Below, one piece after another: positions 147-33,429 of a stretch of 33,429 bases of DNA. The notes under the pieces are model-generated. The model ran no database searches. It saw only the letters and a program-made list of their open reading frames with translations, and was not told the origin of the DNA. A program made the translations under genes and the position numbers. This DNA comes from a virus: IMG/VR virus record IMGVR_UViG_3300027801_000087, positions 1-33,429 of that record. The stretch is one strand, 5' to 3'. Position 1 is the stretch's first letter; every line of letters begins with the position of its first letter.

Positions 147-503
147 TCATAACCACCATTTCCCTTCCCAAGGCCCAGATGTTTTCTGTTCTAATGATAC
201 CTTTAACATTTCCATAAAAGTATACAGTTTAACGTCCTTTACGTTGCCTGTCTTATAGTATATATCTTTAGGAATCAGTAATTCTTTTCCTGTTGCTACG
301 TCTATAACAAAAGAATCGTTTATTAGAATAAAAGCATGGCCGTATTCTATACCCTTTACATTATTACCTACACCAGTTACAGTAGCGTGTGCTAATTTAG
401 CACTATCACCCATTTCGTGTCCTTTTGTTGTCATCCAGTCATAAGCATCACGGTAACAAGTACCGCCATCTTTCTCACCTTTAATGATATTATACCAATT
501 CAT
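147..503 (-). CDS. Candidate papain/NlpC-like cysteine hydrolase, last gene of the structural operon
   Basis: This 118-residue protein has a possible Cys-His-Asp catalytic layout: C16 in GGTCYRDA at the start of a helix, H56 in EYGHAFIL, and D68 in SFVIDVATGK, followed by a conserved-looking IPKDIYY. Small phage proteins with the pattern NCY..A, then GHAW.., then V.D..NG...YY are common beside tail fibre genes and look like stripped-down papain-fold enzymes. The assignment comes from recalled motif order, not from a search. The start ATG (503) follows GAGTGATTTA, and the gene begins 4 bases after the stop of the upstream gene. Possible roles are cell-envelope cleavage during entry or lysis, or processing of a tail protein. 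It could instead be a non-enzymatic relative; the substrate is unknown. Confidence 0.55.
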   Translation of the reverse strand: MNWYNIIKGEKDGGTCYRDAYDWMTTKGHEMGDSAKLAHATVTGVGNNVKGIEYGHAFILINDSFVIDVATGKELLIPKDIYYKTGNVKDVKLYTFMEMLKVSLEQKTSGPWEGKWWL

Positions 504-858: not shown

Positions 859-3800
859 TCAACTTAGTTCAAATCTAAATGTAACTCTTACTCTACCTAT
901 TTGGTTTAGAGAACTATAAGTTGAACCAGCCGCATCATGTAATGTTAAATTGAATGTATCTGCATCTGCAAAAGAAACATCAGGAGTAAAACTCTTTTGA
1001 ACATGTGCTCCACCACTACCACTCATATTAAATGTATAATCTGTGGCAATTTCTGAACCGTTTTTATCAATTCTTATTTTGAAGTTATTTGAGCCAACCT
1101 CTGCTCCTACATTTCCTATCCAAAAGTGCATTTCTTTAAGAACACATGCTTTAGGTAGGATTACTTCTGTTCCTATTGTTCCTGAATCCGTGTTAGTATT
1201 GTTATTCATACCTGCACCGAAAGAGAATCTTTTACCATTTCTAAGTGCATCAGTAAAGTATTGGTCGTTCCATTCAGCAACCATATAGAAATCACTACTA
1301 CCACCACCACCACCGGCATTTGCATCAACATATGCTTTTACATTTCCTTGAGTGCATAATTTAGTATCTGATGTACCTAGAGAATCATTGTTTTCAATTG
1401 TAGTGACTCTTACTCCACTGCCTCCTATTCTGAGACCGCTATCGGTCAAGTCTAATCTAGTTGTATTATTTGTTTTGAAAGTTTGAGTATCTGTTCCAAA
1501 AGTCATGTTGTTGTTAGTGTCATTTTGATGAATAATACTTGTACCGATTGTCACTGACCCTGCTGTTACATAATTAGCCGCAGTTAATGTTCCTGAAGTT
1601 GTATCGCTGGCATTATTCTTTAAGAAAGCATCATCTACATTGAAAGTAGTACCACTCAAAGTTAGATTAGTACCGCCTGAATAGGTTGTATTAGTATCAG
1701 TATTAGTAATTGCTCCTGACGCAGCACCAAGATAACCCCATTGTGTTGCTGAGATTGTTGAAGAACCTATGTTTTTTAATTGAGTAATTTCTCCTGATGC
1801 TAAATCATCGGTGAGGGCGTAATTGTTTGCACTAGCAGCAATAGCATCCAATTTAGTTTTTAGTGTAGTAGTAAAGTTCTGTTGTGTTAAGCCACCTGCA
1901 CCAACCGAATATGTGGTATTAGTGTAATTATTAGCATGAACCGTTCCTGCACCATCAACCGTTAAATCAACAGTAGCGGTAGCCGAGGCAGCAATAGCAT
2001 CCAATTTAGTTTTTAGTGTAGTAGTAAAGTTTTGTTGAGTCAATCCACCAGCACCAACAGAATAAGTTGTATTAGTCGGTGTAGCCCAAGTTAATCCACC
2101 TGTATTACCAGATTGTTTCGATAAGAATTGACCATTACTACCAGTGTTTGAAATCTTTAGATTTGCTTCATCAACTACGCTACTTGCTATTGTTAATGCT
2201 GTTGCTCCTGTAACTTCTCCGGTATGTGCTGTGTGGCTAAATGCTGTACCTGAAAGTGTAACGCCTGAACCTGCACTATATGTTGTGTTAGTGTTTGTTG
2301 TCTTTGCACTCCAACTAAATGAACCATCTGCATCCGAAGTTAAAACATATCCTGATGTTCCATTGCCAGAAACATTCAGTTGGTCTGCACCTATACCATT
2401 ATCAGAAATCTTGAAAGTTAAATCGAATGGGTCTTCATTAGAACCAGGAGATACATCTGTAAAGTTTATGTCAAGACCAGCACCTTCAACAAACTTTAAC
2501 TCTCTATTATGAGCCATAGTAACTTGTGTACCATCTCCATCATGTATGTCAAAGGTGGTTAATTGATTAGTGTTAGTGTTAGTAGTGTAACTAGGAGTAG
2601 CCCATACAGCAGTTCCACTTGAAGTATATTTCAAGAATTGGCCAGAAGCACCACCAGTAGGAATATGTTTGTTACCTGCTGTTGTTGGATGAGTGTAAAC
2701 AGTATTGGGTGTTGTAACTGAACCACCTAAAGATATTGCTACACCGTTAATTGTTACACTACTATTAGTTAATGCACTATTAGCAATGTTGCTTAGAGTA
2801 TTATTACTTGCATTAATTGTTTTATTGGTTAGAGTTTGTGATGCTATTAATTGCACAATGTTACTATTTGTAATAGAAGTAATCTTAGTAGCGGTGGCCG
2901 CATTTCCAGTTGTACTCTGATTAGCCGTAACATAACTGTAAGATAATATCTTATCTTGTATTGCAGCAGATGTCATCAGTTCAGTATTAACATCGTTAAA
3001 CCCACTCCCTGAATCTTGAATAGTCGCAATCGCAACTGTTCCTGAATCCGATTCATCAAAAGTCCAATTACCTGTTGTGGTAAAACCGGCAGCAGTAATT
3101 ACACCCGAAGTTGCATCATTGGCATTATTCTTTAAGAAAGCATCATCGACATTTAATGTGTTTCCACTTAATGTCATATTAGTCCCTGCTGCTCTTTGGG
3201 TGTTAGTGTCCGTGTTAGCAGAACTCAAAGTTACTGCATCTCCACTTGTAGTAATAGTCATACCACCAGCCGCTACTAATGTTAGAGTATCAGTTGCTGA
3301 ATCAGCCGCAGCAGTTGTTTGCCCACTTACTGCTACATTGCTGAAAGCATTCTGATTGTTCTCTCCGCCAGCACCCGCCGCTATCCAAGTAAATCCTGTT
3401 GTAGCGTGGTCATAACTTAAAAGATAATTATCTTGACTTGAGCCTGGTGTGTTAGTAGCCTTTAATTTTGGTTCTAATATTGAGTTATCTGCAATCCTTG
3501 CAGCAGCAAAAGTACCACTTGTAATTTTAGACGTTGCTAAACTTGGTATTCTTGCATCTGCCAAAGCACCACTTGTAATTTTAGATGCTGCTAAACTTGG
3601 TATTCTATCTACATGGAATGACCCACTGGTTACTTTGGATGCTCCTAAACTAGGTATTCTAGCATCTAAAAAAGTACCACTGGTAATCTTTGAAGTAGCA
3701 AGGTTTGGTATTCTAGCATCTACTAAAGTTCCACTTGTTATCTTTGATGCTGCTAAAACAGGGATATGTGATGCTGAAAGATTCGGTGTAAATGTTGTAC

Positions 3801-6800
3801 CGGATAATGTTAATCCACTACCTGCTGAATATGTCGTATCTTGTGTTGGTATTGTAAACGTAGCGTTTGGTATAGTTACTGTTTTATTACTGGTAGCAAC
3901 AGCAGATTTTAAAATCATATCAATGTTGTCACTATTAACTCCTTCAAACACTACTCCATTAGATACAGAAGTAGTTAGTACATTGGCAGTAGTTGTAGTG
4001 CCTGTTACTATTACATTTCCAGGGAAAGTAGTGGTTGTTCCATCATCACCTATCTGTAATGCAGTACCAAAACCGCTAGCAAGTCTAGTCTTTAAAACAG
4101 ACTCAGAAACGTTAACATCAGTGTTAGTTACCTTAGCATTGTTAGCAGTAATATGGTCGCGCTGCGTAGTTGTAATACCTACCTTTGCTGTATTGGCAGA
4201 TATAGCAGAAGTCTGTCCTGAACTTATTCCTGTCTTTGCAGTATTGTTACTTATAGCAGTGGCTTGAGTGGATGTTATACCCGTTTTGGCTGTATTATTA
4301 GAAATAGCAGTCGCTTGTGTTGATGTTATTCCTGTTTTAGCCGTGTTAGTATTAACTGCTGATGCGGCAGTAAAACTTATTTTATCATTATTAGCAGTTA
4401 TATGACCTGCTTGAGTAGAGGTTATTCCTGCCTTTGCATTGTTAGCAGTTATATGACCTGCTTGAGTAGTTGTTATGCCTGTTTTAGAAGTATTAGCAGT
4501 TATAGCACTAGACTGGCTTGAAGATATACCTGTCTTTGCGGTATTAGCAGTAATGGCAGAAGTCTGTCCTGAAGTTATACCTGTTTTAGAAGTGTTAGCA
4601 GTAATGGCAGATGTTTGACCACTTGTTATACCTGTTTTTGATGTGTTTGCTGATATAGCGTTTGATTGAGCAGTAGATATACCTGTCTTTGCTGTATTAG
4701 CCGTTATAGCAGATGATTGACCACTTGTTATTCCTGTTTTAGCGGTATTGGTAGCAATAGTATTAACAATAGAAGATGTGAAATTGACGCTAGTTAACCC
4801 ATTATTACCTACTGAATATGTAGTATCATTATCAGCAGCCCAACTTAAGTTACCAGAACCATCATTCTTCAATATAGTATTAGCACCGCCTTGTGCAGCA
4901 GGGAGTGTGATACCGTAACTTGCTGTTATAGTAGCATGAGGTATTATTGAAACAAAATGAGATTCATCTGAATCAGCAAATGATATTCCTTCTCCTTGAG
5001 CATTAACAATAATTTTCTTTTGTGTAGTTATGTCTGTATCTCTAAAAGATGCTACTAGAGTTCTACCACCACTACCCGCAGTAGATGTATTTCCATAAAT
5101 ATGAACTTCTCCGTTTGCTGCTCTATTTTCTATTGCTACTGTATTGGAACTAGCAGTCATAAAGTTTCTAGCAGTACCTCCAGAGTCTACATATTGGAAT
5201 ACAGCCTCTCCACCACTAGCACCGCCTTCTGTTTGAAAATCAAACTTCATAGAACTTGGCCCAATTGTAACACTAGCGTTAGCCGAATCAGTATCTTTGA
5301 ATAAGAAACTTCCTTGTGCCTTTTCAAATATTAAATCAGCATTACCTATTGCCTTTATTTTATGGCCATTAGCATCTAAATCTCCACCTAATTGTGGTGT
5401 AGTATCCGCGGCTAAACTTGATATACCGCCTGATTCAGATGGAGGTACAACCCATGTTCCATCTTGTCTAAGATACTTATTAGCATGTGTGCTATTACCA
5501 CTCGCAACTAAACCAGAAGCATAACTGTTACTTGCTCCCATTACTGAGTATTGAGTGTTAGTATAATTGTTTGCATGAACTACACCTGTACCATCTGACG
5601 TTAAATCAACAGGTATTGAAGTATTACCTGCTAACGCATCTCCTGAGCCTGAGCCTACTGCAAGATTGCTTGTTCCTGCTCCAATATCTGACCTTGCTTC
5701 TGCATCTGTTCTTGTGGTAATAGTATGTGCTCCAGTATTATCAGTTACTATTTTCAAAAACTTTGTTTGGCTATTACCTAAATTACTTACCCCTAGTAAT
5801 GCTTTACCCAAATTAGTTGCTCCAGATAATTGGCTGTTACCTACCGATATTGCTCCTTCATGTTGAGTTACACTTGCTTGTGAAATTTCAGAATTAGCCC
5901 AAGTTCCAGAATTATGAACGTAAGTTTTACTGATGGCAGTCCCTTGCCAATTTCCCGTAGTTATTGTTCCAACCGTTGTTAATGATGAAGAAGTTACTCC
6001 ACCTGGTAATGCATTTCCTGTTAATGTACCTGCTGCTGCTGTAACAGTTATGTTAGAACCACCGTGGAATGATACACCATTAATTTCAACAGGTTCATTT
6101 AGTCGGCTTGCAACAGGTACGACAACCTTCCATCCATTACCACTAGTACCTGTTGCAACTATGCCACTAATTCCTACTGCATTAGCCCTATACTGTTTAA
6201 TTTGTTCTTCTACAACTCCATTAACAGTACTAGTTCTAAACCATACATCACCTATTGTAACTGATGTTGGTGGGGTGTCAGCATAGAATACTTTTGGTTT
6301 AGCACTATTCGATGTTATTGCGGTTGCTTGTCCAGATGTAATTCCTGTTTTACCTGTATTCGTAGAAACCGCAGTTTCTAAGTTACTGATGTTTGGTATT
6401 TCTATTGTTCCTGTAAGAGTAGGATTATTAAACATAGTTGCCTTACTTTCATTGTCAACATTACCTAAACCAACATTAGCAGCAGTAGTTCCAGCCTGAA
6501 TAGAAGCAGCACTTACATTAGTTACACTTCCTAATCCTACCATACCCTTTGTTATGCCTCCCACAGTTCCTGTAAAAGTAGGAGAGGCTATTGTAGCCTT
6601 CAGATTTAATGCCGTTTGTTGAGCAGTAGATACAGGTTTAGCACTATCAGCAGTATTGTTTACACTTCCTAATCCTACATCACCAGCCGAAGCAGCACTA
6701 AGAGTGTCTGATTGAATAGTTGCTTGGCTTGCGTTGGTTACACTTCCTAATCCTACATCACCCTTTACTAATCCTAACGCTCCTTTACCTATTGATACTG

Positions 6801-9570
6801 CAACCCAATTACTACTACCTGTTGCTGATGCTCTATACATCTTATTATTATCATTTGAATCAATCCATAAATCTCCAACAGCAGTAGCAGTAGGAGCATT
6901 ATCAGCAACAAAAGTTTCAGTCTGTCTTGTGTTTGCTACATTACCTAAACCAACATCTGATGCACTCGCAGCCGATAAAGTATCCGATTGAATAGTTGCT
7001 TGACTAACATTAGTTACATTACCAAGACCTACATTTTCTGCTGTTGTACCTGCTCTCATAGCGGCAGTAGTTATATCTGAAACATTAGTTAATCCTACCA
7101 TTGCTTTAGTAATACCACCTACTGTACCTGAAAAAGTAGGGCTTGCAATATTAGCCTTTAATGCAATAGCAGTAGCAGAAGCGGAAGAAACGGGTTTAGC
7201 AGAATCAGAAGTATTTTCTACATTACCTAAGTCTACATCTGATTTAGTAATTGCAGCAATAGTAGCAGATTGAATAGCAGATTGACTAACATCTGTTACA
7301 TTACCTAAACCTATGGTGGTTTTATTGATAGTAACTTCTACCCATTCACCTGCTGTAACAGCATCAGAACCAACACTAGCAGCATGATATATTTTATTAT
7401 TATCATTAGTGTCTATCCATAAATCTCCAACAGCCGTTGAAGTAGGTATTGCATCTTGCTTGAATGTTTTAGTCTTGGTAGCCATTTGCGTTACAATAGT
7501 AGCAGCAAAATCATCATCGTCATTTAATGCTTCTGATAATTCAACTAATGTATCCATACTATCTGGAGCACCACCAATCAAAGCAGTTATTTTAGCCTGT
7601 GCTAAAGTATTAATTTGTGCATCAGTTCTAACTGTTTTTACTGTGTTTGCATCAACTGCACTTTTCAAGTCACTAATTCCAGGAAGGACTATTGTTCCTG
7701 TTAAAGTAGGATTAGTAAACATAGTTGCTTTACTTTCATTAGTTACACTACCCAAACCAACATCACTAGCAGTAGTATTTGAATTAAGTAAGGTGGTTAG
7801 TGCTGTTAATCCTGTTCCACCTCTTACAGCAGGTATAGTTCCAGTAGTGATTTTACTAGCATTCAAATTAGGCACGTTAGCCTCTACTATTTCTCCTCTA
7901 ATAACAGCAGATGTTTTATTTTCTACATCTGGTAATCCAATATTTGCTTTTGTTGTACCTGCTCTGATATCGGCTGCACTTAAGTTAGTTACATTACTTA
8001 ATCCTACATTAGAAGCAGTAGTGCCTGAACGAATATCAGCAGCAGAAAGGTTAGTTACACTGCCTAGTCCTACATTAGAAGCAGTAGTACCTGCTCTAAT
8101 TGTTGCTGTGGAATCATTATCTACATTTGCTAGACCAACTGTTGTTTTATTGAACCCAACTAAAACCCATTCTCCTGACGCAACTTCATCTGCTCCTACT
8201 GATTCAGAAACATACAATTTATTGTTATCATTAGTATCATACCATTGGTCGCCTATTGCGGTTGCAGTAGGTGGCTCATTTTGTTTGAATGTACTTATTT
8301 GCTTTTTATTCAATACATTTCCAAGCCCTACATCTGACGCACTAGCCGCAGATAACGTAGCAGACTGTATTGCTGATTGGCTTACATTAGTTACATTTCC
8401 TAATCCTACATCCGATGCACTAGCAGCAGAAAGAATATCTGTCTGTAATGTGGAAGATGACTTATTATCTACACTACCAAGCCCTACATTTGCTTTAGTA
8501 GTGTTTGTATTTAATAGCGTAGTTAATGCTGATAATCCTGTACCTCCTCTATTAGCAGGTAATATCCCCGTAGCGATTTTACTAGAATCTAAATTAGGTA
8601 TGTTGCTCGCTATTATTTCACTTCTAATTGTAGCAGATGATTTATCGTCTGCATTAGGTAGCCCTACATCTTCTTTAACAAAGGACATAGCGGATTTTAA
8701 TTGTGCATATGTTAATCCTTTTACATGATTAGTACCTGCTAATAATACATCATTAGTAGCAACTAATTCTTCTAACTTTAATGTATTAGTATTTGCTTTA
8801 CCAAAAGTTAATGCATTTTGTTTAGCATTCCAAGTACCTGATGATGCAATAAAAGCATCACCAAGATTACCTGAAGTTATTAATCCAGCAGACATATTTG
8901 GTTGTGTACCTGTTAATTGTGTATAGTTTACAGATGCCCCAGATAAAGCAAGAGTACCTGTCGTAGAAGGAAGAGTTAGAGTTGTTTCTGTACCTGATAC
9001 TGTTTTAGTAATAGTACCTTCTTTATTAATTCTGAGAGTTTCAGTGCCATTATTAACCGCAGAAAATTCAGAGTTTAGTTTATCCATTCCTAAAAATTGT
9101 ATCTTTCTACCTGTTACATTGTTACCTAATGCTTTTGATATTTGTACTGCTGCAACAGGGATATCTCCTAGAAGTGGTAATGCTCCATCTACAATTGTTG
9201 CGCCTAATGCAGTGCTTCCTCTAAACGCTATTGTATTATTAAGAGCAATTACAATTAAACCAAACCAATCATTTGAGGCGTTCTTAGCCCATGTTGGTTC
9301 TTGAGCAGATACAGCAGAAAGAGTACGGTATTTACCATCTCTAAAATATTTAATTTCGGTCAAAGCATATGTGCTATATGTAGACCCCGTACCAATCGTT
9401 ATGTTTCCACCAGAAACTACGAAGCAACCAGCACTAGCAATATTCAGCGTGTTAATTAAATTAGCGTTTAAGGTATCTGTTCCATCCTTTAGTCTATCAT
9501 CAGCGTTAGTATTAGCACTACCGGTAATGGCAGATGATAGTGTACTGATAAATTTCGGGTTATTAGGCAT
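859..9570 (-). CDS. Giant repetitive tail fibre (2903 residues)
   Basis: This protein probably makes the host-contacting fibre. The first ~200 residues look globular and include a wall-type segment TLTLPSTTGTLALSG. Residues ~300-1080 hold roughly twenty copies of a VGLG(N/S)V(T/D)N unit mixed with GGTGL..LTTLLN units. Four copies of a GD.W.D(T/S)NDNNK.Y module lie near residues 447, 718, 905 and, in altered form, 1110. Residues ~1600-1815 are about twelve 17-residue NTAKTGIT repeats, and residues ~1930-2030 are five 18-residue ASKITSGT..DARIP repeats. The last ~150 residues after a GGGGGSS linker are non-repetitive and beta-rich, a likely receptor-binding tip ending VRVTFRFELS. Its start ATG overlaps the previous stop (TAATG). 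These repeat types are familiar from marine phage fibres and suggest a long, probably trimeric, shaft. Confidence 0.85.
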   Translation of the reverse strand: MPNNPKFISTLSSAITGSANTNADDRLKDGTDTLNANLINTLNIASAGCFVVSGGNITIGTGSTYSTYALTEIKYFRDGKYRTLSAVSAQEPTWAKNASNDWFGLIVIALNNTIAFRGSTALGATIVDGALPLLGDIPVAAVQISKALGNNVTGRKIQFLGMDKLNSEFSAVNNGTETLRINKEGTITKTVSGTETTLTLPSTTGTLALSGASVNYTQLTGTQPNMSAGLITSGNLGDAFIASSGTWNAKQNALTFGKANTNTLKLEELVATNDVLLAGTNHVKGLTYAQLKSAMSFVKEDVGLPNADDKSSATIRSEIIASNIPNLDSSKIATGILPANRGGTGLSALTTLLNTNTTKANVGLGSVDNKSSSTLQTDILSAASASDVGLGNVTNVSQSAIQSATLSAASASDVGLGNVLNKKQISTFKQNEPPTATAIGDQWYDTNDNNKLYVSESVGADEVASGEWVLVGFNKTTVGLANVDNDSTATIRAGTTASNVGLGSVTNLSAADIRSGTTASNVGLSNVTNLSAADIRAGTTKANIGLPDVENKTSAVIRGEIVEANVPNLNASKITTGTIPAVRGGTGLTALTTLLNSNTTASDVGLGSVTNESKATMFTNPTLTGTIVLPGISDLKSAVDANTVKTVRTDAQINTLAQAKITALIGGAPDSMDTLVELSEALNDDDDFAATIVTQMATKTKTFKQDAIPTSTAVGDLWIDTNDNNKIYHAASVGSDAVTAGEWVEVTINKTTIGLGNVTDVSQSAIQSATIAAITKSDVDLGNVENTSDSAKPVSSASATAIALKANIASPTFSGTVGGITKAMVGLTNVSDITTAAMRAGTTAENVGLGNVTNVSQATIQSDTLSAASASDVGLGNVANTRQTETFVADNAPTATAVGDLWIDSNDNNKMYRASATGSSNWVAVSIGKGALGLVKGDVGLGSVTNASQATIQSDTLSAASAGDVGLGSVNNTADSAKPVSTAQQTALNLKATIASPTFTGTVGGITKGMVGLGSVTNVSAASIQAGTTAANVGLGNVDNESKATMFNNPTLTGTIEIPNISNLETAVSTNTGKTGITSGQATAITSNSAKPKVFYADTPPTSVTIGDVWFRTSTVNGVVEEQIKQYRANAVGISGIVATGTSGNGWKVVVPVASRLNEPVEINGVSFHGGSNITVTAAAGTLTGNALPGGVTSSSLTTVGTITTGNWQGTAISKTYVHNSGTWANSEISQASVTQHEGAISVGNSQLSGATNLGKALLGVSNLGNSQTKFLKIVTDNTGAHTITTRTDAEARSDIGAGTSNLAVGSGSGDALAGNTSIPVDLTSDGTGVVHANNYTNTQYSVMGASNSYASGLVASGNSTHANKYLRQDGTWVVPPSESGGISSLAADTTPQLGGDLDANGHKIKAIGNADLIFEKAQGSFLFKDTDSANASVTIGPSSMKFDFQTEGGASGGEAVFQYVDSGGTARNFMTASSNTVAIENRAANGEVHIYGNTSTAGSGGRTLVASFRDTDITTQKKIIVNAQGEGISFADSDESHFVSIIPHATITASYGITLPAAQGGANTILKNDGSGNLSWAADNDTTYSVGNNGLTSVNFTSSIVNTIATNTAKTGITSGQSSAITANTAKTGISTAQSNAISANTSKTGITSGQTSAITANTSKTGITSGQTSAITANTAKTGISSSQSSAITANTSKTGITTTQAGHITANNAKAGITSTQAGHITANNDKISFTAASAVNTNTAKTGITSTQATAISNNTAKTGITSTQATAISNNTAKTGISSGQTSAISANTAKVGITTTQRDHITANNAKVTNTDVNVSESVLKTRLASGFGTALQIGDDGTTTTFPGNVIVTGTTTTANVLTTSVSNGVVFEGVNSDNIDMILKSAVATSNKTVTIPNATFTIPTQDTTYSAGSGLTLSGTTFTPNLSASHIPVLAASKITSGTLVDARIPNLATSKITSGTFLDARIPSLGASKVTSGSFHVDRIPSLAASKITSGALADARIPSLATSKITSGTFAAARIADNSILEPKLKATNTPGSSQDNYLLSYDHATTGFTWIAAGAGGENNQNAFSNVAVSGQTTAAADSATDTLTLVAAGGMTITTSGDAVTLSSANTDTNTQRAAGTNMTLSGNTLNVDDAFLKNNANDATSGVITAAGFTTTGNWTFDESDSGTVAIATIQDSGSGFNDVNTELMTSAAIQDKILSYSYVTANQSTTGNAATATKITSITNSNIVQLIASQTLTNKTINASNNTLSNIANSALTNSSVTINGVAISLGGSVTTPNTVYTHPTTAGNKHIPTGGASGQFLKYTSSGTAVWATPSYTTNTNTNQLTTFDIHDGDGTQVTMAHNRELKFVEGAGLDINFTDVSPGSNEDPFDLTFKISDNGIGADQLNVSGNGTSGYVLTSDADGSFSWSAKTTNTNTTYSAGSGVTLSGTAFSHTAHTGEVTGATALTIASSVVDEANLKISNTGSNGQFLSKQSGNTGGLTWATPTNTTYSVGAGGLTQQNFTTTLKTKLDAIAASATATVDLTVDGAGTVHANNYTNTTYSVGAGGLTQQNFTTTLKTKLDAIAASANNYALTDDLASGEITQLKNIGSSTISATQWGYLGAASGAITNTDTNTTYSGGTNLTLSGTTFNVDDAFLKNNASDTTSGTLTAANYVTAGSVTIGTSIIHQNDTNNNMTFGTDTQTFKTNNTTRLDLTDSGLRIGGSGVRVTTIENNDSLGTSDTKLCTQGNVKAYVDANAGGGGGSSDFYMVAEWNDQYFTDALRNGKRFSFGAGMNNNTNTDSGTIGTEVILPKACVLKEMHFWIGNVGAEVGSNNFKIRIDKNGSEIATDYTFNMSGSGGAHVQKSFTPDVSFADADTFNLTLHDAAGSTYSSLNQIGRVRVTFRFELS
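1835..2031 (-). repeat. Pair of identical 44-bp direct repeats within the fibre gene
   Basis: Positions 1835-1878 and 1988-2031 are identical over 44 bases, 153 bases apart. Both encode the same QQNF..LKTKLDAIAAS segment. The repeat unit itself is larger (about 51 codons, TNTTYSVGAGGLTQQNF..), but the identity at the DNA level points to a recent duplication or gene conversion rather than only selection on protein. Confidence 0.85.
3480..3770 (-). repeat. Five 54-bp (18-residue) tandem repeats in the fibre gene
   Basis: Tandem coding units of the form LAASKITSGT..DARIPS appear five times with period 18 residues. Alternating A/T/G at positions 2-3 and variable residues after SGT show that the copies have diverged. 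A shortened ASKI.TG..P..RGGTGL form occurs again twice further upstream in the same protein, so this looks like an amplified version of a more general fibre motif. Confidence 0.85.
4130..4765 (-). repeat. About twelve 51-bp (17-residue) tandem repeats in the fibre gene
   Basis: Units of the form NTAKTGITSGQSSAITA repeat about twelve times with period 17 residues. One unit (NNDKISFTAASAVNT) is shortened and breaks the register, and the copies are degenerate at the DNA level. The same repeat style is known from cyanophage and other marine phage fibres. The regular N-T-x-K-T-G-I spacing suggests a repeating shaft fold in a trimer. Confidence 0.85.
6400..8700 (-). repeat. Dispersed VGLGNV-type coding repeats in the fibre N-terminal half
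   Basis: About twenty copies of a short unit, core VGLG(N/S)V(T/D)N with following S/A-rich residues such as ASAASDVGLGNV, are spread over this stretch, separated by GD.W.DTNDNNK modules. Copies share short DNA words (for example tacattacctaaacc) but none is long and identical. They are protein-level repeats of a fibre shaft, not a CRISPR or integrative element. Confidence 0.8.
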
Positions 9571-25873: not shown

Positions 25874-26965
25874 TTAATCAATCAGATATATCAAGTTCTT
25901 TTTACCATCGAGTATTGCGTTAGCCTCGGTAGTTAGTATTTCATGTTTCTTACCAATATCAATGTTACCTGCATCAGCAATTAATATTGTGTTGTCGTCA
26001 GTTACTAACACTTCTGCCGCTACTAATTTAGTAGTTGCTTCGTGTATTGAAGAAGGTACTCTACTGCTACCTCTCTCATATGTAACTCTAATAGAATGAT
26101 TTGACGTATAAGGATAGTTAGTTCTGAAGAACATCTTCCCTTCATCGTTAATCATCCAATAGTCATCATTTCTACCACTTGTTTGGTTATCTACGAAAGC
26201 ATAACTTGTTGTGTCAGAACCAATCGTTTGATTTAAAGTGCATATTGTGCCTGCATCAGAAGGTAGCCTAGAAGAAATAAAGACCCCTTTCTTGTCCTCT
26301 GTTGGACAAGCATAGAAAAAATCAGATATATTTCTTGTATCGTTTGTGTCTCTTGTTTGTTTTTTAGCACTTTGTCCTGTAAATGCTGCTGTCTTTGAAG
26401 GATAGATTTCATTAATTGCTGAACATATCTCTAACACAGTAGTTTTTTGTCCAAAATGGTCATAAAAACCATTCAAATCATTATCATTTAATGTAAAAGT
26501 AAGTCCACCAACGGTAAATACTAGTTTATACACTTGGTCATTTGAACTTGGTGTTAGAGGTGGTGTGTAAGTACAAGATGCTGATGCCAAATCAACATAT
26601 GTATCTCCTTGCCAAACTTCTAATCTCAATATCTTTCTAACTTTTTCACTACCTAATTGTATAAAACCAACATAGTCTTTACTAGGTCTAACAGGGTATG
26701 CTCCTTGTTGATATGGGTCAAAGTTATGTACTTCTTTCTCTACAATTTCTGGCCTATAAGAGACTTTTAATTTATCGTCAATTCTTCCTTCTGTTCTTTT
26801 AATTATCTTACCTATCGCTGCTCTATCTGGAGTAGTTAAATCTGTAAAAGCACCGCATTGTAACAAATCCGATACATCAGTATGAGTAGTATAGTATCCT
26901 ATACCCTGCGAATAGTTTGATGTTACACCTACAATATAGTCACTTTCTGATTTTAATTTACTCAT
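25874..26965 (-). CDS. Head-tail connector/adaptor-like protein
   Basis: The 363-residue protein begins with a helical part (HTDVSDLLQCGAFTDLTTP, then IGKIIKRTEGRIDDKL) typical of gp6-type head-tail adaptors that dock under the portal. The C-terminus returns to helices (EATTKLVAAEVLVTDDN, then EANAILDG), as in these adaptors. Residues ~120-270 are a beta-rich insertion with a helix (TTVLEICSAINEIYP) and KGVFISSRLPSDAGTICTLN, similar in style to the modules in the tail tube and LamG proteins. It starts on an ATGA overlap with the gene before, with AGGGTGTTACA upstream. Usual adaptors have about 100-200 residues. Confidence 0.6.
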   Translation of the reverse strand: MSKLKSESDYIVGVTSNYSQGIGYYTTHTDVSDLLQCGAFTDLTTPDRAAIGKIIKRTEGRIDDKLKVSYRPEIVEKEVHNFDPYQQGAYPVRPSKDYVGFIQLGSEKVRKILRLEVWQGDTYVDLASASCTYTPPLTPSSNDQVYKLVFTVGGLTFTLNDNDLNGFYDHFGQKTTVLEICSAINEIYPSKTAAFTGQSAKKQTRDTNDTRNISDFFYACPTEDKKGVFISSRLPSDAGTICTLNQTIGSDTTSYAFVDNQTSGRNDDYWMINDEGKMFFRTNYPYTSNHSIRVTYERGSSRVPSSIHEATTKLVAAEVLVTDDNTILIADAGNIDIGKKHEILTTEANAILDGKKNLIYLID

Positions 26966-28878
26966 TGTAACACCCTCTCTAAACTAGACATTTGTTTTTT
27001 AATATAATATAACATAGTATTTGTTTTAGGATTAATATACATTGGTTGCCCTCCGGCATCTATTCTTCCTCTCAATGGGCTTTCTCCTTTAGGGACAATA
27101 GGTTTAGCATAGTTAGAAAATTTAAGTTTCTTAGCCCTTTCGCCACTCCTAGATTCCGGTCTTCTTTCAACCCAATCTTTAAACGCATATTCTGTTGATG
27201 TAACATATGATACACTCTTTAATCTAAACACATCCCATACTTTATCTAATAGATATTTAGAGTTACCTCTAACATCAGAATCATCGTCATTAAGTAACTC
27301 TTCTCTATCTGCCTTTTCTTGGTCTGTACCATGAACTACTACTAGTTCTATTCTTAATACTCCTACCTTCTTAGGTACTAATGCTAAGTCTAATTTTTGT
27401 TTAAGTTCTCTTGAATTAATAGCACCATTTAATAAATCAATAGATACTTGGTCAGGAGTTTTCCAACTATCATTTTTAAATAATTTTTTATCTGATTGTT
27501 TACTATGTACAATAGGTAATGTCCTTCTGCTCATGTTTTCTGTTATCTTTCTTCTTGTTGTAGTTGCTTCTTTTTCTCTAAGTGCTGATTCAAATTCGGT
27601 TCTACCTACTGGTATTTTTAGATTTGATTTAAACTCTACAACATCGCTAATTAACTGTCTCTCTTTTGCGTTAAATCCTCTTTTACCTGGTATTTTACCA
27701 TCATCTATTAATGCATCATATGCATCATATGTCATTAAATTAAAGTCGGCTAACTTTTCCGCTAAATTTCCAACCTCATCCATTTGACCTTCTCTTATTC
27801 TAGCAACAACTTCTTCTGCATCCATATCACCACTAGTTACTTCATCTTCATACTTAAATTCGCCATCAGCAAGTAATGCATTCCAAGCAAGTTTAAGATT
27901 TAATTCCTCTAATGTGTCTTCTTCTTCAGAAGATAAAGGATAGTCAGAATGAGGCTTATATGATACTACTTCTCTATAATTATACTCTTCATCTTCCGAT
28001 ATACCAAATTTTTTATTATCTATACTATCTGGTATATCTAAAAATTCGTTTTTTATTATTAACTCTAGTGATTTTTTAACCTTGTTTGCCCTTGCCATTG
28101 CTTCAGCCAATGCTTCGTCTGTGTTAGTATTGGACTTGGGTTTTTTAGTTTTTGAGTTTTTTGAACCCCTTAGAACTTCAGGCGTTATCCCCGCTTCCAT
28201 AAATAATTTATTAAATACACCTTTGAAATCAATGTTAATTTCATACGTCTGCTCTTGAACAGTACTTTTGTTTCTTGCATTAGGCAATTCTATTTGTGTA
28301 CTTACTGGATTACTAACTACTACTTTCGTAAAATCATCTATTGAGTTTAATGCCTCAGTATATTTTGCCCCTTTATCTGCTGCTTGCCATATCTTTTTGC
28401 TTTCTATTCCTTTAGTATGTGCAGATAGTAAATGGTCTGTACCTAATTCATTATTGACTTCTGATAATTTGACACTCTTACCTTCATCTAATAATCCTTG
28501 CTTTAGTGCTCTATCTATCTGAGTATAATCACCCACATATTTTTTTAAATGAATCAATAATTCTTCTGCTGTTAAATCTTTAATAGCATCCCAAGCATAC
28601 TTTATGTGTTGCCTATATTCCTCTTCATCGAATTCTATATCTTTATCTGTTTCAGATATTTTATTCATAAACCCAGGCTTTAAAAAATAAGTTAGGTTAT
28701 CCTCTATCTCATTATAATTATTATCACTAAATGGGGATGATAGATACTTTAACATTAGAATAAATAGAGGGTGGTTTGAAGCATCCCCTGATTTCATACT
28801 ATCTTCAAGTTCTATAACTTGGTTTACTGTGTAGTCTCTTCTATCATACCTAATAGTTTCGGGGATAGTAATCGTCAT
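26962..28878 (-). CDS. Unrecognised charged 638-residue structural-operon protein
   Basis: I do not recognise this protein. It is hydrophilic, mostly helical, acidic in its first two thirds and basic toward its end. Visible pieces are an opening TITIPETIRYDRRDYTVNQV, a low-complexity basic patch near residue 235 (SKNSKTKKPKSNTNTDEALA), a helical acidic stretch (YPLSSEEEDTLEELNLKLAW) and a C-terminal RGRIDAGGQPMYINPKTNTM segment that looks like a zinc-free beta hairpin. No membrane segment or signal peptide is seen. Its place just before the head-tail adaptor makes a virion or head-assembly role likely. A portal was considered but no portal pattern is apparent. The ATG has GAGGGG upstream. Confidence 0.6.
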   Translation of the reverse strand: MTITIPETIRYDRRDYTVNQVIELEDSMKSGDASNHPLFILMLKYLSSPFSDNNYNEIEDNLTYFLKPGFMNKISETDKDIEFDEEEYRQHIKYAWDAIKDLTAEELLIHLKKYVGDYTQIDRALKQGLLDEGKSVKLSEVNNELGTDHLLSAHTKGIESKKIWQAADKGAKYTEALNSIDDFTKVVVSNPVSTQIELPNARNKSTVQEQTYEINIDFKGVFNKLFMEAGITPEVLRGSKNSKTKKPKSNTNTDEALAEAMARANKVKKSLELIIKNEFLDIPDSIDNKKFGISEDEEYNYREVVSYKPHSDYPLSSEEEDTLEELNLKLAWNALLADGEFKYEDEVTSGDMDAEEVVARIREGQMDEVGNLAEKLADFNLMTYDAYDALIDDGKIPGKRGFNAKERQLISDVVEFKSNLKIPVGRTEFESALREKEATTTRRKITENMSRRTLPIVHSKQSDKKLFKNDSWKTPDQVSIDLLNGAINSRELKQKLDLALVPKKVGVLRIELVVVHGTDQEKADREELLNDDDSDVRGNSKYLLDKVWDVFRLKSVSYVTSTEYAFKDWVERRPESRSGERAKKLKFSNYAKPIVPKGESPLRGRIDAGGQPMYINPKTNTMLYYIKKQMSSLERVLQ

Positions 28879-28887
28879 CTAAACCCC

Positions 28888-29643
28888 TCATGCTAACCAT
28901 GCCGCCCATGCAGCACCTTTAGATATCATTTTACCTAAACCAAGACCACTTCCTGGTGGTGTATAACTTGGCTGTCCTGTTGCAGGGTCAATCCAGTAAG
29001 CGTTACCCATAGTGTCATAACCACTAGGGGCTACTGGAAAACCTGATGGATTGTTCATGGCATTTTGTTGTTGCATCATCATATTGTTTGCTTGTACCAT
29101 TGGATTGCCACCAGTAATTTGTGAAGGGTTCATTCCTCCACCATTAGGTGCACCCATACCTTGTTGAGGTAGTGCCTGTTGTTGATATTGTTGTTGATAT
29201 TGTTGTGTTGGTTGCTGATATTGTGCTTGTGGGGGGACAGCAGGATTAAACCCTTGAGTTTCTAAATACTGTTGTCTAGCCATTTTTCTTTGAACTATAA
29301 CTTCTGTATTAACAGCAGCAGCAAGTAAAGTTTGTACATCTAAAGTTATGTTAGCCTCAGTAACTGCTTCATATGCTCTTAAGCAATCTGTGTGAATTAT
29401 CATTTCTCCACTTGCTCCCTGTGTTAATTTTAACTGTGCAAGTAATTGGCTAACTACTCTTTCACAAGTGTCTTCCATAAGTTTTTCTAATGCCATTAAG
29501 AAGCCTTCTCCATGATATTCAAAGAATTCTTCTACATGATTAGTTTGTAAAGTTAATAGATTATTGGTTGCCTTAAAGTTAGCAGCAGCCTGTGCATCTA
29601 TTGCTTGCACTATATTGTTGTTGCTAGTTCCTAATAATCCCAT
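28888..29643 (-). CDS. Q-rich low-complexity protein
   Basis: This 251-residue protein has a helical, non-repetitive first 140 residues (VEEFFEYHGEGFLMALEKLM, then ERVVSQLLAQLKLTQGAS) and a disordered second half with repeated QQYQQ units, Met/Asn/Gly-rich stretches and a WIDPATGQPSY segment, ending in a hydrophobic GKMISKGAAWAAWLA. I chose ATG 29643, just after the TAA of the previous gene and preceded by AAGGAG. The preceding membrane protein also has a short Q/N-rich tail, so the two may share an assembly. No family is recognised; a scaffold-like or internal virion role is possible. Confidence 0.6.
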   Translation of the reverse strand: MGLLGTSNNNIVQAIDAQAAANFKATNNLLTLQTNHVEEFFEYHGEGFLMALEKLMEDTCERVVSQLLAQLKLTQGASGEMIIHTDCLRAYEAVTEANITLDVQTLLAAAVNTEVIVQRKMARQQYLETQGFNPAVPPQAQYQQPTQQYQQQYQQQALPQQGMGAPNGGGMNPSQITGGNPMVQANNMMMQQQNAMNNPSGFPVAPSGYDTMGNAYWIDPATGQPSYTPPGSGLGLGKMISKGAAWAAWLA

Positions 29644-29644
29644 T

Positions 29645-30343
29645 TTATTCAACTCCTTCTTCAAACATGGCTGCTATTGACTGTTGGACTGCTGCCTGTG
29701 GTTTAATTGTTGTCCCTTCTGTCATTAGTGCCAGTACTCTGTTATTAATTGCATGGCTTTCCATTGTTATTCTAAATAGTTCATCCTCTGCGGTCTCAAC
29801 TGACATTTGAGGTGGGCGTATTGTCCAACCTCTAGCAGATAATGTTTCGATATCTGATTGCCTTAATGAAGTTAGTGGCCCAGAGGCTAATATGTTAGGC
29901 ACTCTTGGTTTAGGAATATATGCACTAAATGATAGTCCATGTTCTTCTGCTATCATTTGTTGCTCTAGCATTTCATATTGTTTATGCAATTGAGAATGCT
30001 TTTCACAATATGTACCTCTCATTGGATATCCTTTCTTTACTTTGTGTAAAGGAATGGAAGGTCTACCTGGGTCTGATGCTTCCCACATCTTATGAGTACC
30101 ACATATTACACATCTATCTCTAGTATTGAATTTAAATCCATAAGGAAGTTTGAACATAGATTTCTTTTCTGGCCATAAAATATTAACCATTTCTTTCATT
30201 TGTTTTTTAGGTTTAGTACTCTTGTAATCATATTTCATTACTGAACCAGGTGCTCTAGCATACTTTGTTGGTGGTAAAAATGAATTAGCCACAGTTGCAT
30301 TACTTGCTCCGATTAAACTTGGGGGTTGGTATGTCATTGTCAT
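29645..30343 (-). CDS. Zinc-finger-like protein
   Basis: This 232-residue protein has a candidate metal site: C78-x2-C81 (CVICGTH) and C113-x2-H116 (TYCEKH), separated by 31 residues; H84 and H100 lie between. The pattern suggests a zinc finger that stabilises a small fold or binds nucleic acid or protein. The N-terminus is Pro/Ser-rich (PPSLIGASNATVANSFLPP) and basic (KSTKPKKQMKEM). After the finger comes a helix (HSQLHKQYEMLEQQMIAEE) and a segment LRQSDIETLSARGWTIRPP. I chose ATG 30343 because AAGGAGATGAATAAT precedes it; an upstream ATG at 30379 would lie inside the coding frame of the microprotein. No family is recognised. Confidence 0.65.
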   Translation of the reverse strand: MTMTYQPPSLIGASNATVANSFLPPTKYARAPGSVMKYDYKSTKPKKQMKEMVNILWPEKKSMFKLPYGFKFNTRDRCVICGTHKMWEASDPGRPSIPLHKVKKGYPMRGTYCEKHSQLHKQYEMLEQQMIAEEHGLSFSAYIPKPRVPNILASGPLTSLRQSDIETLSARGWTIRPPQMSVETAEDELFRITMESHAINNRVLALMTEGTTIKPQAAVQQSIAAMFEEGVE

Positions 30344-30348
30344 ATTAT

Positions 30349-30435
30349 TCATCTCCTTTGGCAAACAATACAAGAACATATTGTTAAAACATAGTTATTT
30401 TGCGAGCAGTTATCTGTTATTAATTGTGTATTCAT
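30349..30435 (-). CDS. 28-residue Cys-rich microprotein
   Basis: A tiny frame reads MNTQLITDNCSQNNY, then VLTICSCIVCQRR, with Cys at 10, 20, 22 and 25 (CxCxxC). Its start ATG is 8 bases after AGGTGA, and that site overlaps the TAG of the GTPase gene (TAGGTGA), while its own TGA overlaps the ribosome binding site of the zinc-finger gene. This tight coupling is the main evidence that it is translated. The cysteines could bind a metal or form disulphides. It might instead act only as a leader that links translation of the GTPase and zinc-finger genes. Confidence 0.55.
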   Translation of the reverse strand: MNTQLITDNCSQNNYVLTICSCIVCQRR

Positions 30436-30445
30436 TTTTTTTCAC

Positions 30446-31114
30446 CTAGTAGTCTTCTATCATTGTTGTTATTCCTCTATATACCATTTCCGATTCTGAT
30501 TTTGCACTTATTATATATTTATGTGTTGGTATTCCTCTATCATTTAATCTCTGCATTCCATCTTGAAACGCTTCAAATATAGGGTGTTTTTGTATGTCAT
30601 TATATTGGTATGTGTCTTTCCATAAGTCAAACTTATTCGCCCAAACTCCAACTGCTATTGGGTAGTCATTTGGTTTCTTTTTATTTCGTTTATTTATAAC
30701 ATCCCAATGTTTTGAAGTTATACAATCTACTAAAAATTTCCAACACAGTTGTTGCTCTATGTCTATGTGCTTGGCTAAATGTCTATCATCAATCATAAAA
30801 ATAATATATCTTACTTTTCTATTTTTCATGTCTATTAGCCAGTCGCCCCAGTATAATGATTCACCTCCTATGTCTGATGTTTTTATTGTATGTGTGTCCC
30901 CATCTATTTTAATCGTTTTTCTTAGTGCTTTATGTGCTCCAACAGTTCTCTGTTTAATTATTGGTACATCTCCTCTAGTTCTTAATTGATGGTGTAGTGT
31001 TGTTTTACCTACTTTTGTTGCTCCATAAACACCAAATGCATGGGGGTTTATTTTTTTCCAAAATGAAGAAATCTGTTCTACAATTATTATTGCAAAACCC
31101 GCCATTACCGACAT
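30446..31114 (-). CDS. Ras/Arf-like small GTPase
   Basis: This 222-residue protein has the canonical small GTPase motifs: G1 GATKVGKTT (residues 31-39), a G2 candidate T57 in QRTVG, G3 DIGGE (81-85), G4 NKFD (160-163) and G5 ISAKS (202-206). The GKTT P-loop and the DxGG form recall Arf, SRP-receptor-beta and Rag families more than translational GTPases. Where Arf has Gln after DVGG this protein has Glu (E85), which may lower or alter hydrolysis. The N-terminus (VMAGFAIIIVEQISSFWKKI) is hydrophobic then amphipathic, a possible membrane anchor. Upstream lie two membrane-protein genes, and GAGGAAT before the ATG overlaps the stop of the nearer one. GTP binding is well supported; partner and role are unknown. 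Confidence 0.85.
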   Translation of the reverse strand: MSVMAGFAIIIVEQISSFWKKINPHAFGVYGATKVGKTTLHHQLRTRGDVPIIKQRTVGAHKALRKTIKIDGDTHTIKTSDIGGESLYWGDWLIDMKNRKVRYIIFMIDDRHLAKHIDIEQQLCWKFLVDCITSKHWDVINKRNKKKPNDYPIAVGVWANKFDLWKDTYQYNDIQKHPIFEAFQDGMQRLNDRGIPTHKYIISAKSESEMVYRGITTMIEDY

Positions 31115-31123
31115 AAATATTCC

Positions 31124-31348
31124 TCAGAATAGATGGTGATAGAAACTCCAAAAGCCCTCCCATAGTTCAGAATATATGTTTACCCCAAACACAGGAAGTA
31201 GATGGCCTAACATAAATCCAGACACTGTTGATATTATTCCCCAAAAATAAAACCTTGCACGTAAAAACCATACATCTGCTGAATGCGCTCTTTGCATATC
31301 ATATGCTAGAGCAGTCTCATCCATTCCAAATGCTATGGCTTCCAACAT
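31124..31348 (-). CDS. Small single-pass membrane protein next to the GTPase
   Basis: This 74-residue protein has one clear hydrophobic segment (residues 33-54, FYFWGIISTVSGFMLGHLLPVF), an amphipathic N-terminal stretch with charged residues (MDETALAYDMQRAHSADVW) and an aromatic tail (ELWEGFWSFYHHLF). The ATG follows AAGTGATTTT, and its TGA overlaps the GTPase ribosome binding site, so the two are translationally coupled. It could be a GTPase receptor or anchor, a holin-like protein, or a virion membrane component. No family recognised. Confidence 0.65.
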   Translation of the reverse strand: MLEAIAFGMDETALAYDMQRAHSADVWFLRARFYFWGIISTVSGFMLGHLLPVFGVNIYSELWEGFWSFYHHLF

Positions 31349-31356
31349 AAAATCAC

Positions 31357-31770
31357 TTACTGTTCAAGCCTTGCCAGAAAGGAAGGCTTAATCTCCTGTT
31401 GGTTAACTTGGACTGTACCTGTTGTTGGTAACTGTGGTGACATGTTATAACCCCACTGTTGGTTATACTGTTGTAGACTAGTTCTTACTCTTTCTCTCTG
31501 TTGTTCATCTCTGGCTCTCTTAGCCCAATATGATGCTATCTTTCTATCTAATAACGTCATTTCTATATAGTCATTTAATACTAAATCAAACACTGCTTTC
31601 ATTACAAGTATTCCTCCAATAGTCATCAATCCGAAAACTACTGCATGAGCATAATGAGAGAATGCAAGCAGACTCCCGAACTCAGCGTAAAAGAATACAT
31701 TTACTCCACATATTGCTCCTACGAACAATATAGTCATCACTAATTTGGTATCTTTACCTAATGCTGGCAT
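31357..31770 (-). CDS. Two-pass membrane protein with Q-rich tail
   Basis: This 137-residue protein has two hydrophobic segments (residues ~10-28 and ~42-64: VMTILFVGAICGVNVFFYAE and VVFGLMTIGGILVMKAVFDL), then a charged helical region (LDRKIASYWAKRARDEQQRE) and a Gln/Asn-rich tail (QQYNQQWGYNM). The two-helix hairpin followed by a soluble helix resembles holin-like or membrane-scaffold proteins, but no family is recognised. ATG 31770 follows AGGAGAAAAAT, and only 8 bases separate it from the next gene. It likely acts with the neighbouring membrane protein and GTPase. Confidence 0.65.
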   Translation of the reverse strand: MPALGKDTKLVMTILFVGAICGVNVFFYAEFGSLLAFSHYAHAVVFGLMTIGGILVMKAVFDLVLNDYIEMTLLDRKIASYWAKRARDEQQRERVRTSLQQYNQQWGYNMSPQLPTTGTVQVNQQEIKPSFLARLEQ

Positions 31771-31781
31771 ATATTTTTCTC

Positions 31782-32096
31782 CTAGTTATATTGGGCAGAA
31801 ACTGAAACATTTATTTTCGTTCCTGCGCCACTAACTAGGATATATAATCCATCACTAATTACACAGCCATGCATATCAAAATCAAGATTTGTTTTTAATG
31901 CGCCTATATGTACTCGATGAATTAATTTACCAGAATTTGATGTTCCATCATAAAAATCTACAGTCATTGCGGCTGCTTGATTATTACTAACCTTAAATGA
32001 AACTATTTTGTTTCTACCATTCAACAGTTGTACATCCTGGTTTTCATTTGCACTAGTAAATGCGTGCATCTTAGTTGTTAATGCTCCACTACTCAT
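31782..32096 (-). CDS. Small beta-sandwich protein, possible virion surface protein
   Basis: This 104-residue protein is beta-rich, with alternating polar and hydrophobic residues (IVSFKVSNNQAAAMTVDFYD, then KLIHRVHIGALKTNLDF) and a C-terminal GLYILVSGAGTKINVSVSAQY. The form is common in marine viruses next to capsid or tail genes, where such proteins are usually of unknown function or decorate the virion. The ATG follows GGGAGGACTGATATT. Its place between the capsid genes and the membrane block suggests a capsid-associated role. No named family can be given with confidence. Confidence 0.55.
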   Translation of the reverse strand: MSSGALTTKMHAFTSANENQDVQLLNGRNKIVSFKVSNNQAAAMTVDFYDGTSNSGKLIHRVHIGALKTNLDFDMHGCVISDGLYILVSGAGTKINVSVSAQYN

Positions 32097-32139
32097 AATA
32101 TCAGTCCTCCCTCATCTAATTCACATCATGCTACACTTA

Positions 32140-32544
32140 TTAAAGTTCTGAATCTTTTAATTTCTTTTTCAGAACCATTGGTTTTGTTGCCGGTTTAACT
32201 GGTTGCTTTATTTTTAACCCCTTGCTTTCCTTTGCAATGTCCGGTACTAAACCTTTGATTTTACTGGATATTATTGCTTTTTTTGCTTTTGGTTTAAACA
32301 TTTTATCTAATGTTTCATTTAGTGTTTTACCTTTAAACTCTCTTTGTAGCCATTTGTATTGGGTACTACTGCAAGTATTGAGTGTCGCTCTATCTAAAGC
32401 ATCGAATGTAATTTTAAAATTATTATCATTTAGATAAACTAACGCAATTTTTGCATCTACGGTTACTGTTTCCTTTGGGGATATTGTACCGCCTTTAACT
32501 AAAGAACGTGAACGCTCTTTTCCTATGTATTGTAATTTTGCCAT
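32140..32544 (-). CDS. Basic head-region protein of unknown function
   Basis: This 134-residue protein has a short folded-looking N-terminal part (KLQYIGKERSRSLVKGGTIS, then KIALVYLNDNNFKITFDA) and a long Lys-rich C-terminal half (FKPKAKKAIISSKIKGLV, then KPATKPMVLKKKLKDSEL). The basic tail could contact DNA or the acidic inner capsid. I chose ATG 32544, preceded by AAGGTGAAAAAT; an ATG 13 codons upstream lacks a site. I do not recognise the family. Placement beside capsid genes suggests a head completion or internal virion protein. Confidence 0.55.
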   Translation of the reverse strand: MAKLQYIGKERSRSLVKGGTISPKETVTVDAKIALVYLNDNNFKITFDALDRATLNTCSSTQYKWLQREFKGKTLNETLDKMFKPKAKKAIISSKIKGLVPDIAKESKGLKIKQPVKPATKPMVLKKKLKDSEL

Positions 32545-32617
32545 ATTTTTCACCTTGTAAAGTCGTAACCAATGACCTCCCATCTAAGGGAGGCCAAAGG
32601 TCACATTACTACTCATT

Positions 32618-32953: not shown

Positions 32954-32964
32954 ACTTAATAACC

Positions 32965-33429
32965 TCAAGCACTCGTTACGTTCGTAATTTTACCTTGTCC
33001 CTTAAAGAAAGAACAACCAGTTTCAGCAATTGTACGATACATTGCTTGATTACCGAGTGTTCCTACACCGAATGGGTTTCCGTTGTCAATTCCATCCTCA
33101 TAGTATTGGGTTGGTTTTAACACAGATAGCCATAGATGGTCTGTATCAAGTATAAGCAAATCGCTTAGTTTGTTTGAACCATTTCCGGTTTTAGGCATGT
33201 CTTTGCATGGTATCAAAGGTATATCGTAGTAAGTAGCAACTCTAAATCCTACTTCTGTACCTTTTACTCCACGAACTCCGCCATGTGTTGGTATTATTTC
33301 TTTACGGTCTAAGAATCTTTCTTGACTTTGTAGCAAGTCACCTAGATGCTGAATAGTATCATATCCAGTTAAGATAACTTTTGGGCTACCGCCATTTTCT
33401 CTTAGTGACCTTAACATAGCGTTAAGTAT
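32965..33429 (-). CDS. Major capsid protein, HK97-like, C-terminal part (5' end outside window)
   Basis: The frame runs in from the right edge without a start and gives the last ~154 residues. Features that fit an HK97-fold capsid are the helix-rich start of the fragment (ILNAMLRSLRENGGSPKVIL), then the HLGDLLQSQERFLDRKEI spine-like helix, a beta region (GFRVATYYDIPLIPC), SDLLILDTDHLWLSVLKP, and a C-terminal AMYRTIAETGCSFFKGQGKI. That ending, with 'Y.T...C....GKI' style, is common in capsid proteins of tailed archaeal and bacterial viruses. Gene position, before small virion proteins and tail genes, agrees. The call is from pattern, not a search; the rest of the gene and probably protease and portal lie beyond the right edge. 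Confidence 0.7.
   Translation of the reverse strand: MLNAMLRSLRENGGSPKVILTGYDTIQHLGDLLQSQERFLDRKEIIPTHGGVRGVKGTEVGFRVATYYDIPLIPCKDMPKTGNGSNKLSDLLILDTDHLWLSVLKPTQYYEDGIDNGNPFGVGTLGNQAMYRTIAETGCSFFKGQGKITNVTSA

Follow-up and report, generated by a model that had tools for sequence, protein, structure and literature searches.

In this analysis of a viral window, by which we mean the whole 33,429-nt stretch of IMGVR_UViG_3300027801_000087, we found that a predicted Arf-like small GTPase is encoded within a block of five genes which, in related viruses, are either all present or all absent, and whose position between the minor capsid and the connector genes was fixed in every relative. We tentatively read this block, with a confidence that falls somewhat short of even, as a GTP-switched membrane-docking device that would be used late, for the assembly or maturation of heads at the membrane; the reading draws on analogy with known membrane GTPases. 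The structural genes of the window lie on the minus strand throughout and, in the 5'->3' direction, follow the order MCP C-terminus, p116, p147, p104, tm137 (a 137-aa membrane protein), tm74 (a 74-aa membrane protein), GTPase, Cys ORF, p244, p258, p638 and connector-like gene (Table 1). The placement of the GTPase amid capsid and connector genes, as it had been described in the original prediction, was borne out by both borders. The MCP fragment matched the C-terminus of the HVTV-1 major capsid protein (28%, E 4e-11), while our reading of the product at the other border as the head-tail connector comes from the position of its gene. In the halovirus HVTV-1, a cultivated relative, just four small genes, with no GTPase among them, separate the MCP gene from gene 125. 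One of these, gene 124 (L052 10632-10964), directly precedes the connector gene and encodes one N-terminal hydrophobic helix; a membrane protein at the connector-adjacent place may predate the GTPase block. No Rfam match was obtained within positions 28500-33429, and PADLOC gave no meaningful match.

Table 1. Coordinates of the head gene cluster in the window, in 5'->3' order of the minus strand.
Feature	Position	Strand	Basis
HK97-type major capsid protein (MCP), C-terminal part, cut by the window end	32965..33429	-	HVTV-1 MCP match
p104, small structural protein, upstream border of the block	31782..32096	-	
tm137, two-helix membrane protein with charged C-terminal part	31357..31770	-	hydropathy
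tm74, single-pass membrane protein, 74 aa	31124..31348	-	hydropathy and family consensus
Arf-like small GTPase, 222 aa (predicted)	30446..31114	-	motifs, AF2 model, structural matches
Cys4 microprotein, 28 aa (NCS...C.C..C), translationally coupled, between GTPase and p244	30349..30435	-	
p244, zinc-finger-like; likely start 30343 (232 aa), open frame beginning at 30379	29645..30343	-	
p258, Q/N-rich protein, fifth all-or-none member of the block	28888..29664	-	
p638, large fast-evolving protein before the connector	26962..28878	-	
Connector-like protein, downstream border of the block	25874..26965	-	matches HVTV-1 gene 125

The GTPase motifs G31-T39, T57, D81-IGGE85, N160KFD163 and S203AK205 were found exactly at the residues that had been predicted. 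Among 159 full-length homologues, G31, G36, K37, T38, T39, T57, D81, G83, G84, N160, K161, D163, S203, A204 and K205 were invariant. Residue 85, where Ras and Arf have their catalytic Gln, was Glu in 140 and Gln in 19 of these 159 homologues, and Glu in 132 and Gln in 45 of a larger set of 177 distinct sequences. Purifying selection was strong (median dN/dS 0.05, close pairs), and the level of conservation was near that of the MCP, portal and terminase: among shared proteins, the GTPase ranked sixth, near the MCP, when the related genomes G003 and G009 were compared, and third when G003 was compared with G007. Several hundred IMG/VR contigs of these abundant marine viruses carry the gene; scanning IMG/VR with a single sequence yielded 35 relatives, and each profile scan yielded 371 to 399. 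Neither the PDB nor phage records contained a match to the GTPase when searched with the single sequence. Judged by its sequence, the protein looks functional, and GTPase activity is predicted. Its layout comprises a hydrophobic N-terminal helix (residues 3-22) followed by a G domain (residues 25-222), with no C-terminal lipid motif. The helix was strongly hydrophobic in every homologue (mean H 0.84) with a moment of 0.32, which is closer to what is expected of a membrane-embedded helix than of a strongly amphipathic one; because the hydrophobicity is so high and the moment only 0.32, it may be a permanent anchor rather than a switch.

The AF2 model that was built with an alignment of 74 sequences reached a pLDDT of 78.7 and a pTM of 0.79 (26 close homologues gave a pLDDT of 57) and comprised the N-terminal helix and the full Ras/Arf G-domain topology, with low confidence at the P-loop residues 35-37. 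The G-domain fold with its nucleotide-pocket elements was thereby recovered in the model, and all 1000 of the 1000 aligned chains had Z >= 5. The top rows of VIA-align, the more careful of the two aligners, were Arf/Arl proteins (Arf6, Arl1 and Arf1, Z 16.5 to 15.0), with a RagA-like Loki (Asgard) GTPase within one Z unit of them; the best match was Arf6 2a5f (Z 16.5, rmsd 2.5 A over 161 residues), and the top matches included membrane-bound Arf1 (8s5c, 2ksq). Asgard ArfR was also among the matches (8ouk, Z 15.2; 8oum, Z 15.0). Foldseek placed Rab first, its Rab and Ras matches having E values of about 1e-8, and a PDB-wide sequence ranking placed KRas first at E 0.04, which is too weak for classification. 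The weak Pfam matches of the family were to MMR_HSR1, Roc, SRPRB, Arf and Ras; the Arf model matched 19 of 74 members, and MMR_HSR1, Roc and SRPRB did equally well or better. Comparison with small-GTPase profiles, which had been proposed as a check, returned weak matches and did not single out one subfamily; in sequence, the protein resembles known GTPase families only in the twilight range. The G1-G5 motifs and the modelled G-domain fold together place the predicted protein in the Ras superfamily of small GTPases, and it is Arf-like in its modelled fold and layout, although we do not assign it to the Arf family itself.

The genes upstream of the GTPase encode membrane proteins. Hydropathy analysis revealed two hydrophobic segments in tm137 (residues 10-28 and 43-61) and one in tm74, whose family carries the motif YD..RAHSAD.WFL. 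Both a two-helix protein and a 71-75-aa protein were found upstream of the GTPase in all 170 distinct loci that had enough upstream sequence to be checked; the exceptions to the automatic rule, in which the membrane genes were displaced by an inserted gene or fell below the hydropathy threshold, were read by eye, and both genes were present in all of them. The single-pass membrane protein that had been noted before the GTPase is tm74, which directly precedes it in most relatives, with a tagged gene intervening in some; tm137 keeps its place in the gene order of the relatives. The overlapping ribosome binding sites that had been reported were also recovered: the GTPase has an SD-like GAGG that overlaps the tm74 stop codon, the microprotein has an SD overlapping the stop of the GTPase, and the AGGAG of the following gene overlaps that of the microprotein. 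Pfam, PHROGs and NCBIfam gave no confident family for tm74, tm137 or p244, nor did Pfam and PHROGs for p258.

The 28-aa Cys-rich microprotein, which at first seemed to be the weakest claim, is real and conserved. The motif NC[ST]..C.C..C occurred 22 times in the six frames of 177 loci (2.2 Mb), each of the 22 being directly after the GTPase, while it occurred in 0 of 35,400 shuffles; the codons of its Cys, Asn and Ser show synonymous changes. Its relatives are ORFs of 19-33 aa such as MITDNCSMGMLCQCKECKERNK, whose starts coincide with the GTPase stop or follow it closely and which end at the start of p244. Because many relatives lack it, the microprotein is an accessory part. In p244, C90, C93 and C125 were invariant in 75 of 75 sequences and H128 in 74 of 74; counting p244 with these three Cys and one His alongside the microprotein, two likely zinc binders follow the GTPase.

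The distribution of the block was assessed using the MCP as bait, blind to the GTPase, which was found in 64 of the 64 loci that extended far enough, the other 16 ending too early. Wider MCP searches reached HVTV-1-type viruses and sister marine clades and provided 94 loci with both the MCP and the connector. Of these, 50 contained the GTPase, tm74, tm137, p244 and p258 together and 44 contained none of the five, and no locus had only some of them; the related contigs are not independent, and counts are on distinct sequences where so given, the distinct MCPs behind this result being 43 for carriers and 40 for non-carriers. The original prediction of a three-gene block held in that the genes are kept together, and fell short in extent, as at least two more genes, p244 and p258, also belong to it. 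The outcome that would have spoken against a system, namely genes that are not kept together combined with a model lacking a GTP fold, was examined and did not occur. When 68 MCP sequences were placed in a tree, the carriers formed one group (support 98/100), which corresponds to one change, and a single gain of the block inside the head gene cluster of one Magrovirales-type clade explains the pattern.

Eight large GTPase-less contigs, five of which are 86-94 kb long, gave no match anywhere in a GTPase search, in which two carriers that were searched alongside did match. The 88-kb GTPase-less contig G013 has 40 reciprocal best hits with the carrier G003, including the terminase, portal, protease, MCP, p116, connector, tail and replication proteins, and none of the five block families was found anywhere in it. 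Because so much is common to both, they are the same kind of virus and differ in the block. The earlier statement that standard tailed-virus assembly needs no GTPase agrees with these sister genomes, and since genomes of 86-94 kb lack it, the GTPase is not a general requirement of tailed virions. No GTPase was found at the same place in the GTPase-less relatives; two P-loop-like strings in the 44 loci were rejected as likely due to chance. At the position of p638, these loci encode a protein of 577-1027 aa, for which hhalign detected no homology with p638.

The related contigs of 93-96 kb contain, by inspection, a split family-B polymerase and TFB-, PCNA- and RFC-like ORFs, with GroEL in some of them. 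Magrovirales have been described as tailed viruses of 90-110 kb with a split PolB, TFB, PCNA, RFC and GroEL and with opposed morphogenesis and replication blocks, and they are associated with Poseidoniales archaea (PMC10768690, PMC12999244). The related contigs match this description, the window itself being a 33-kb fragment; the family-level placement and the Poseidoniales host are taken from the magrovirus literature. The only matches in the genome collection were two contigs of the GTDB set that had been binned in a Maricaulis MAG (L108, L109; NZMJ01000101.1, NZMJ01000024.1), and these were not taken as evidence for a host, as they are most simply binned virus contigs or contamination. The family-B DNA polymerase is one 816-aa ORF in G013 (L348-L352) and is split in two in the carriers G003 and G009. 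One relative, IMGVR_UViG_3300021958_000021 (L162), is a contig of 184,733 bases, approximately twice the usual length, and is either a larger virus or a misassembly. We found no report of a magrovirus GTPase and no description of the module in the literature searched, although an earlier annotation in the main 2017/2025 magrovirus papers is possible.

Arf/Arl proteins and Asgard ArfR share with the viral GTPase the G-domain fold, an N-terminal helix before the domain, the DxGG(Q/E) switch II, the T(V/I)G switch I and the lack of a C-terminal lipid motif. Unlike them, the viral protein, at about 20% identity and with the switch II Gln mostly replaced by Glu, belongs to a tailed virus that supplies membrane partners of its own; among prokaryotes, ArfR was described as exclusive to Asgard archaea (PMC12554972). 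In Haloferax volcanii, the small GTPase ArvA, which has an N-terminal amphipathic helix and an Arf1-like fold, drives vesicle budding together with ArvB and the zinc-ribbon protein ArvC (PMC10927574). The viral module resembles this Arv (OapA/B/C) system of Haloferax and other archaea in its N-helix small GTPase, Arf1-like fold, MMR_HSR1 annotation and zinc-binding operon partner, ArvA having been compared by description. ArvB (PF09846) and ArvC (PF09845), however, had no match in seven viral records, while the Haloferax volcanii control matched, and the viral partners are instead two membrane proteins, p244 and p258, of which p244 is a different, Cys3His protein and not ArvC. Because ArvB and ArvC are absent, the module does not count as an Arv system, though its mode of action may be similar; by analogy, Arf and ArvA would be the closest in working principle. 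In SRPRB, too, a membrane helix at the N-terminus precedes an Arf-like G domain, and PF09439 weakly matched 34 of 74 members, with the window GTPase scoring 14.3 bits, below the cut-off of 25; the viral capsid context sets the two apart, and no SRP receptor alpha partner was seen. Giant eukaryotic viruses also encode Ras-superfamily GTPases, which were the closest viral structures among the 50 matches listed, but these are host-like Rab/Ran/Ras genes; no prokaryotic virus was recognisable by name among those 50. The T4 gp40-type portal-assembly chaperone would be comparable as a head-operon membrane protein that aids head initiation at the cytoplasmic membrane, but gp40 is not a GTPase.

We infer that the block is a lineage-specific, late-expressed membrane module. 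Under the docking reading, the GTPase would be a membrane switch whose GTP state exposes or inserts the N-terminal helix, and the GTP-bound form would assemble with tm137 and tm74 at the inner surface of the host's cytoplasmic membrane. The candidate regulators or adaptors would be p244 and the Cys4 microprotein, and p258 would be a candidate link to the prohead or portal. Such a device would concentrate head assembly or maturation at the membrane, possibly remodelling it for release, and GTP hydrolysis would free the particle; this is the working mode as it is thought to operate for Arf and haloarchaeal ArvA, here in a viral morphogenesis operon. Membrane-docked head assembly is favoured over egress, entry and host control because the block always lies between the minor capsid and connector genes. 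It should be said against it that a late membrane module could also serve egress or host control and that the sister clade assembles without the GTPase. Egress, which we regard as rather unlikely, would have the GTPase and the two membrane proteins deform or open the host membrane at the end of infection through vesiculation, budding or a holin-like lesion, as a viral counterpart of ArvA budding, with the head-gene position merely reflecting late transcription. The holin-like size of the small two-helix protein, the ArvA precedent for small-GTPase membrane budding in Euryarchaeota, the late-strand location and co-inheritance of all five genes and the fact that the searches of window proteins turned up no known lysis gene are all in line with it, but the fixed place of the block, p258 and p244 as obligate companions, the lack of a holin family match and the absence of ArvB and ArvC are not.

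An entry component, in which the GTPase and membrane proteins are packaged in or on the head and form or gate a genome channel in the membrane of a new host, is a weaker candidate that we consider unlikely; the block is encoded between the head decoration and connector genes, and the genes inserted between tm74 and the GTPase in some relatives bear a packaging-signal-like MWK[DN]ILK tag, but all five block proteins lack this tag and tail and tape-measure genes are present as usual. It is less likely still that the GTPase mimics a host Ras/Arf-type GTPase and thereby blocks or redirects vesiculation, division, polarity or superinfection. The Arf/ArvA-like fold would suit such a factor, and membrane partners are typical of exclusion systems; host-takeover genes, however, are usually fast-evolving and mobile, while this GTPase is about as conserved as the MCP and portal, is never found outside the head cluster and comes without a meaningful PADLOC match. 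Three features speak for a role in morphogenesis or at the membrane rather than for a mimic of host trafficking: the fixed place in the head cluster, the level of conservation and the all-or-none linkage of the five genes. From the original interpretation, the Ras/Arf-type GTPase, the conserved block and the virion gene cluster were upheld, while its two hypotheses, a membrane anchor for virion assembly or genome release and a mimic acting on the host, are both candidates. That these are unrelated passenger genes with a degenerate, non-functional GTPase is hardly credible: the twilight-level similarity and the mostly substituted switch II Gln could be read in this way, but purifying selection and motif invariance contradict it, as does the all-or-none pattern in 94 loci.

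Tailed-virus assembly is regarded as cytosolic and ATP-driven. The block suggests that in these viruses of marine archaea the host membrane is the docking site for assembly or exit, a mode that is not known in other tailed viruses. It is conceivable, though we hold this with more doubt than belief, that an Arf-type GTPase membrane machine with its own receptors and zinc-binding regulators was acquired, became fixed and is essential for virion morphogenesis or release. If true, this would be the first GTP-driven membrane step in the tailed-virus life cycle and possibly a non-Asgard branch of Arf-like membrane remodelling. The finding bears on the way in which tailed viruses of archaea encounter the host membrane and depart from it, which can now be tested with defined proteins, and adds a viral GTPase to the debate on Arf-like membrane switches beyond Asgard archaea and eukaryotes.

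Other proteins of these viruses share a short tag, M-x(0-2)-W-x-x-[ILVM]-[ILVM]-K, at the N-terminus of 14-16 proteins per genome, all of which are on the morphogenesis strand and otherwise have different bodies (e.g., MTWEDILKK, MSWFNILKG and MWKNILKN), with 0-1 internal occurrences per genome. It was seen in the window at 147..503(-) and in G003 (L037-L041), G009 (L042-L046), G007 and G013, and it has the look of a signal that targets or packages head proteins, similar in concept to the T4 capsid-targeting sequence. The one or two genes (96-183 aa) that are inserted between tm74 and the GTPase at L113, L114, L117, L134, L138, L159, L162, L170 and L183 are all MWxxILK-tagged and differ in their bodies, as though cargo genes bearing the tag moved about inside the structural operon. 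Finally, the window encodes a late protein of 2903 aa at 859..9570(-) with long runs of near-repeats (NTAKTGITSGQSSAI, VGLGNVTNVSQ), which is probably a tail fibre with a tandem-repeat shaft.
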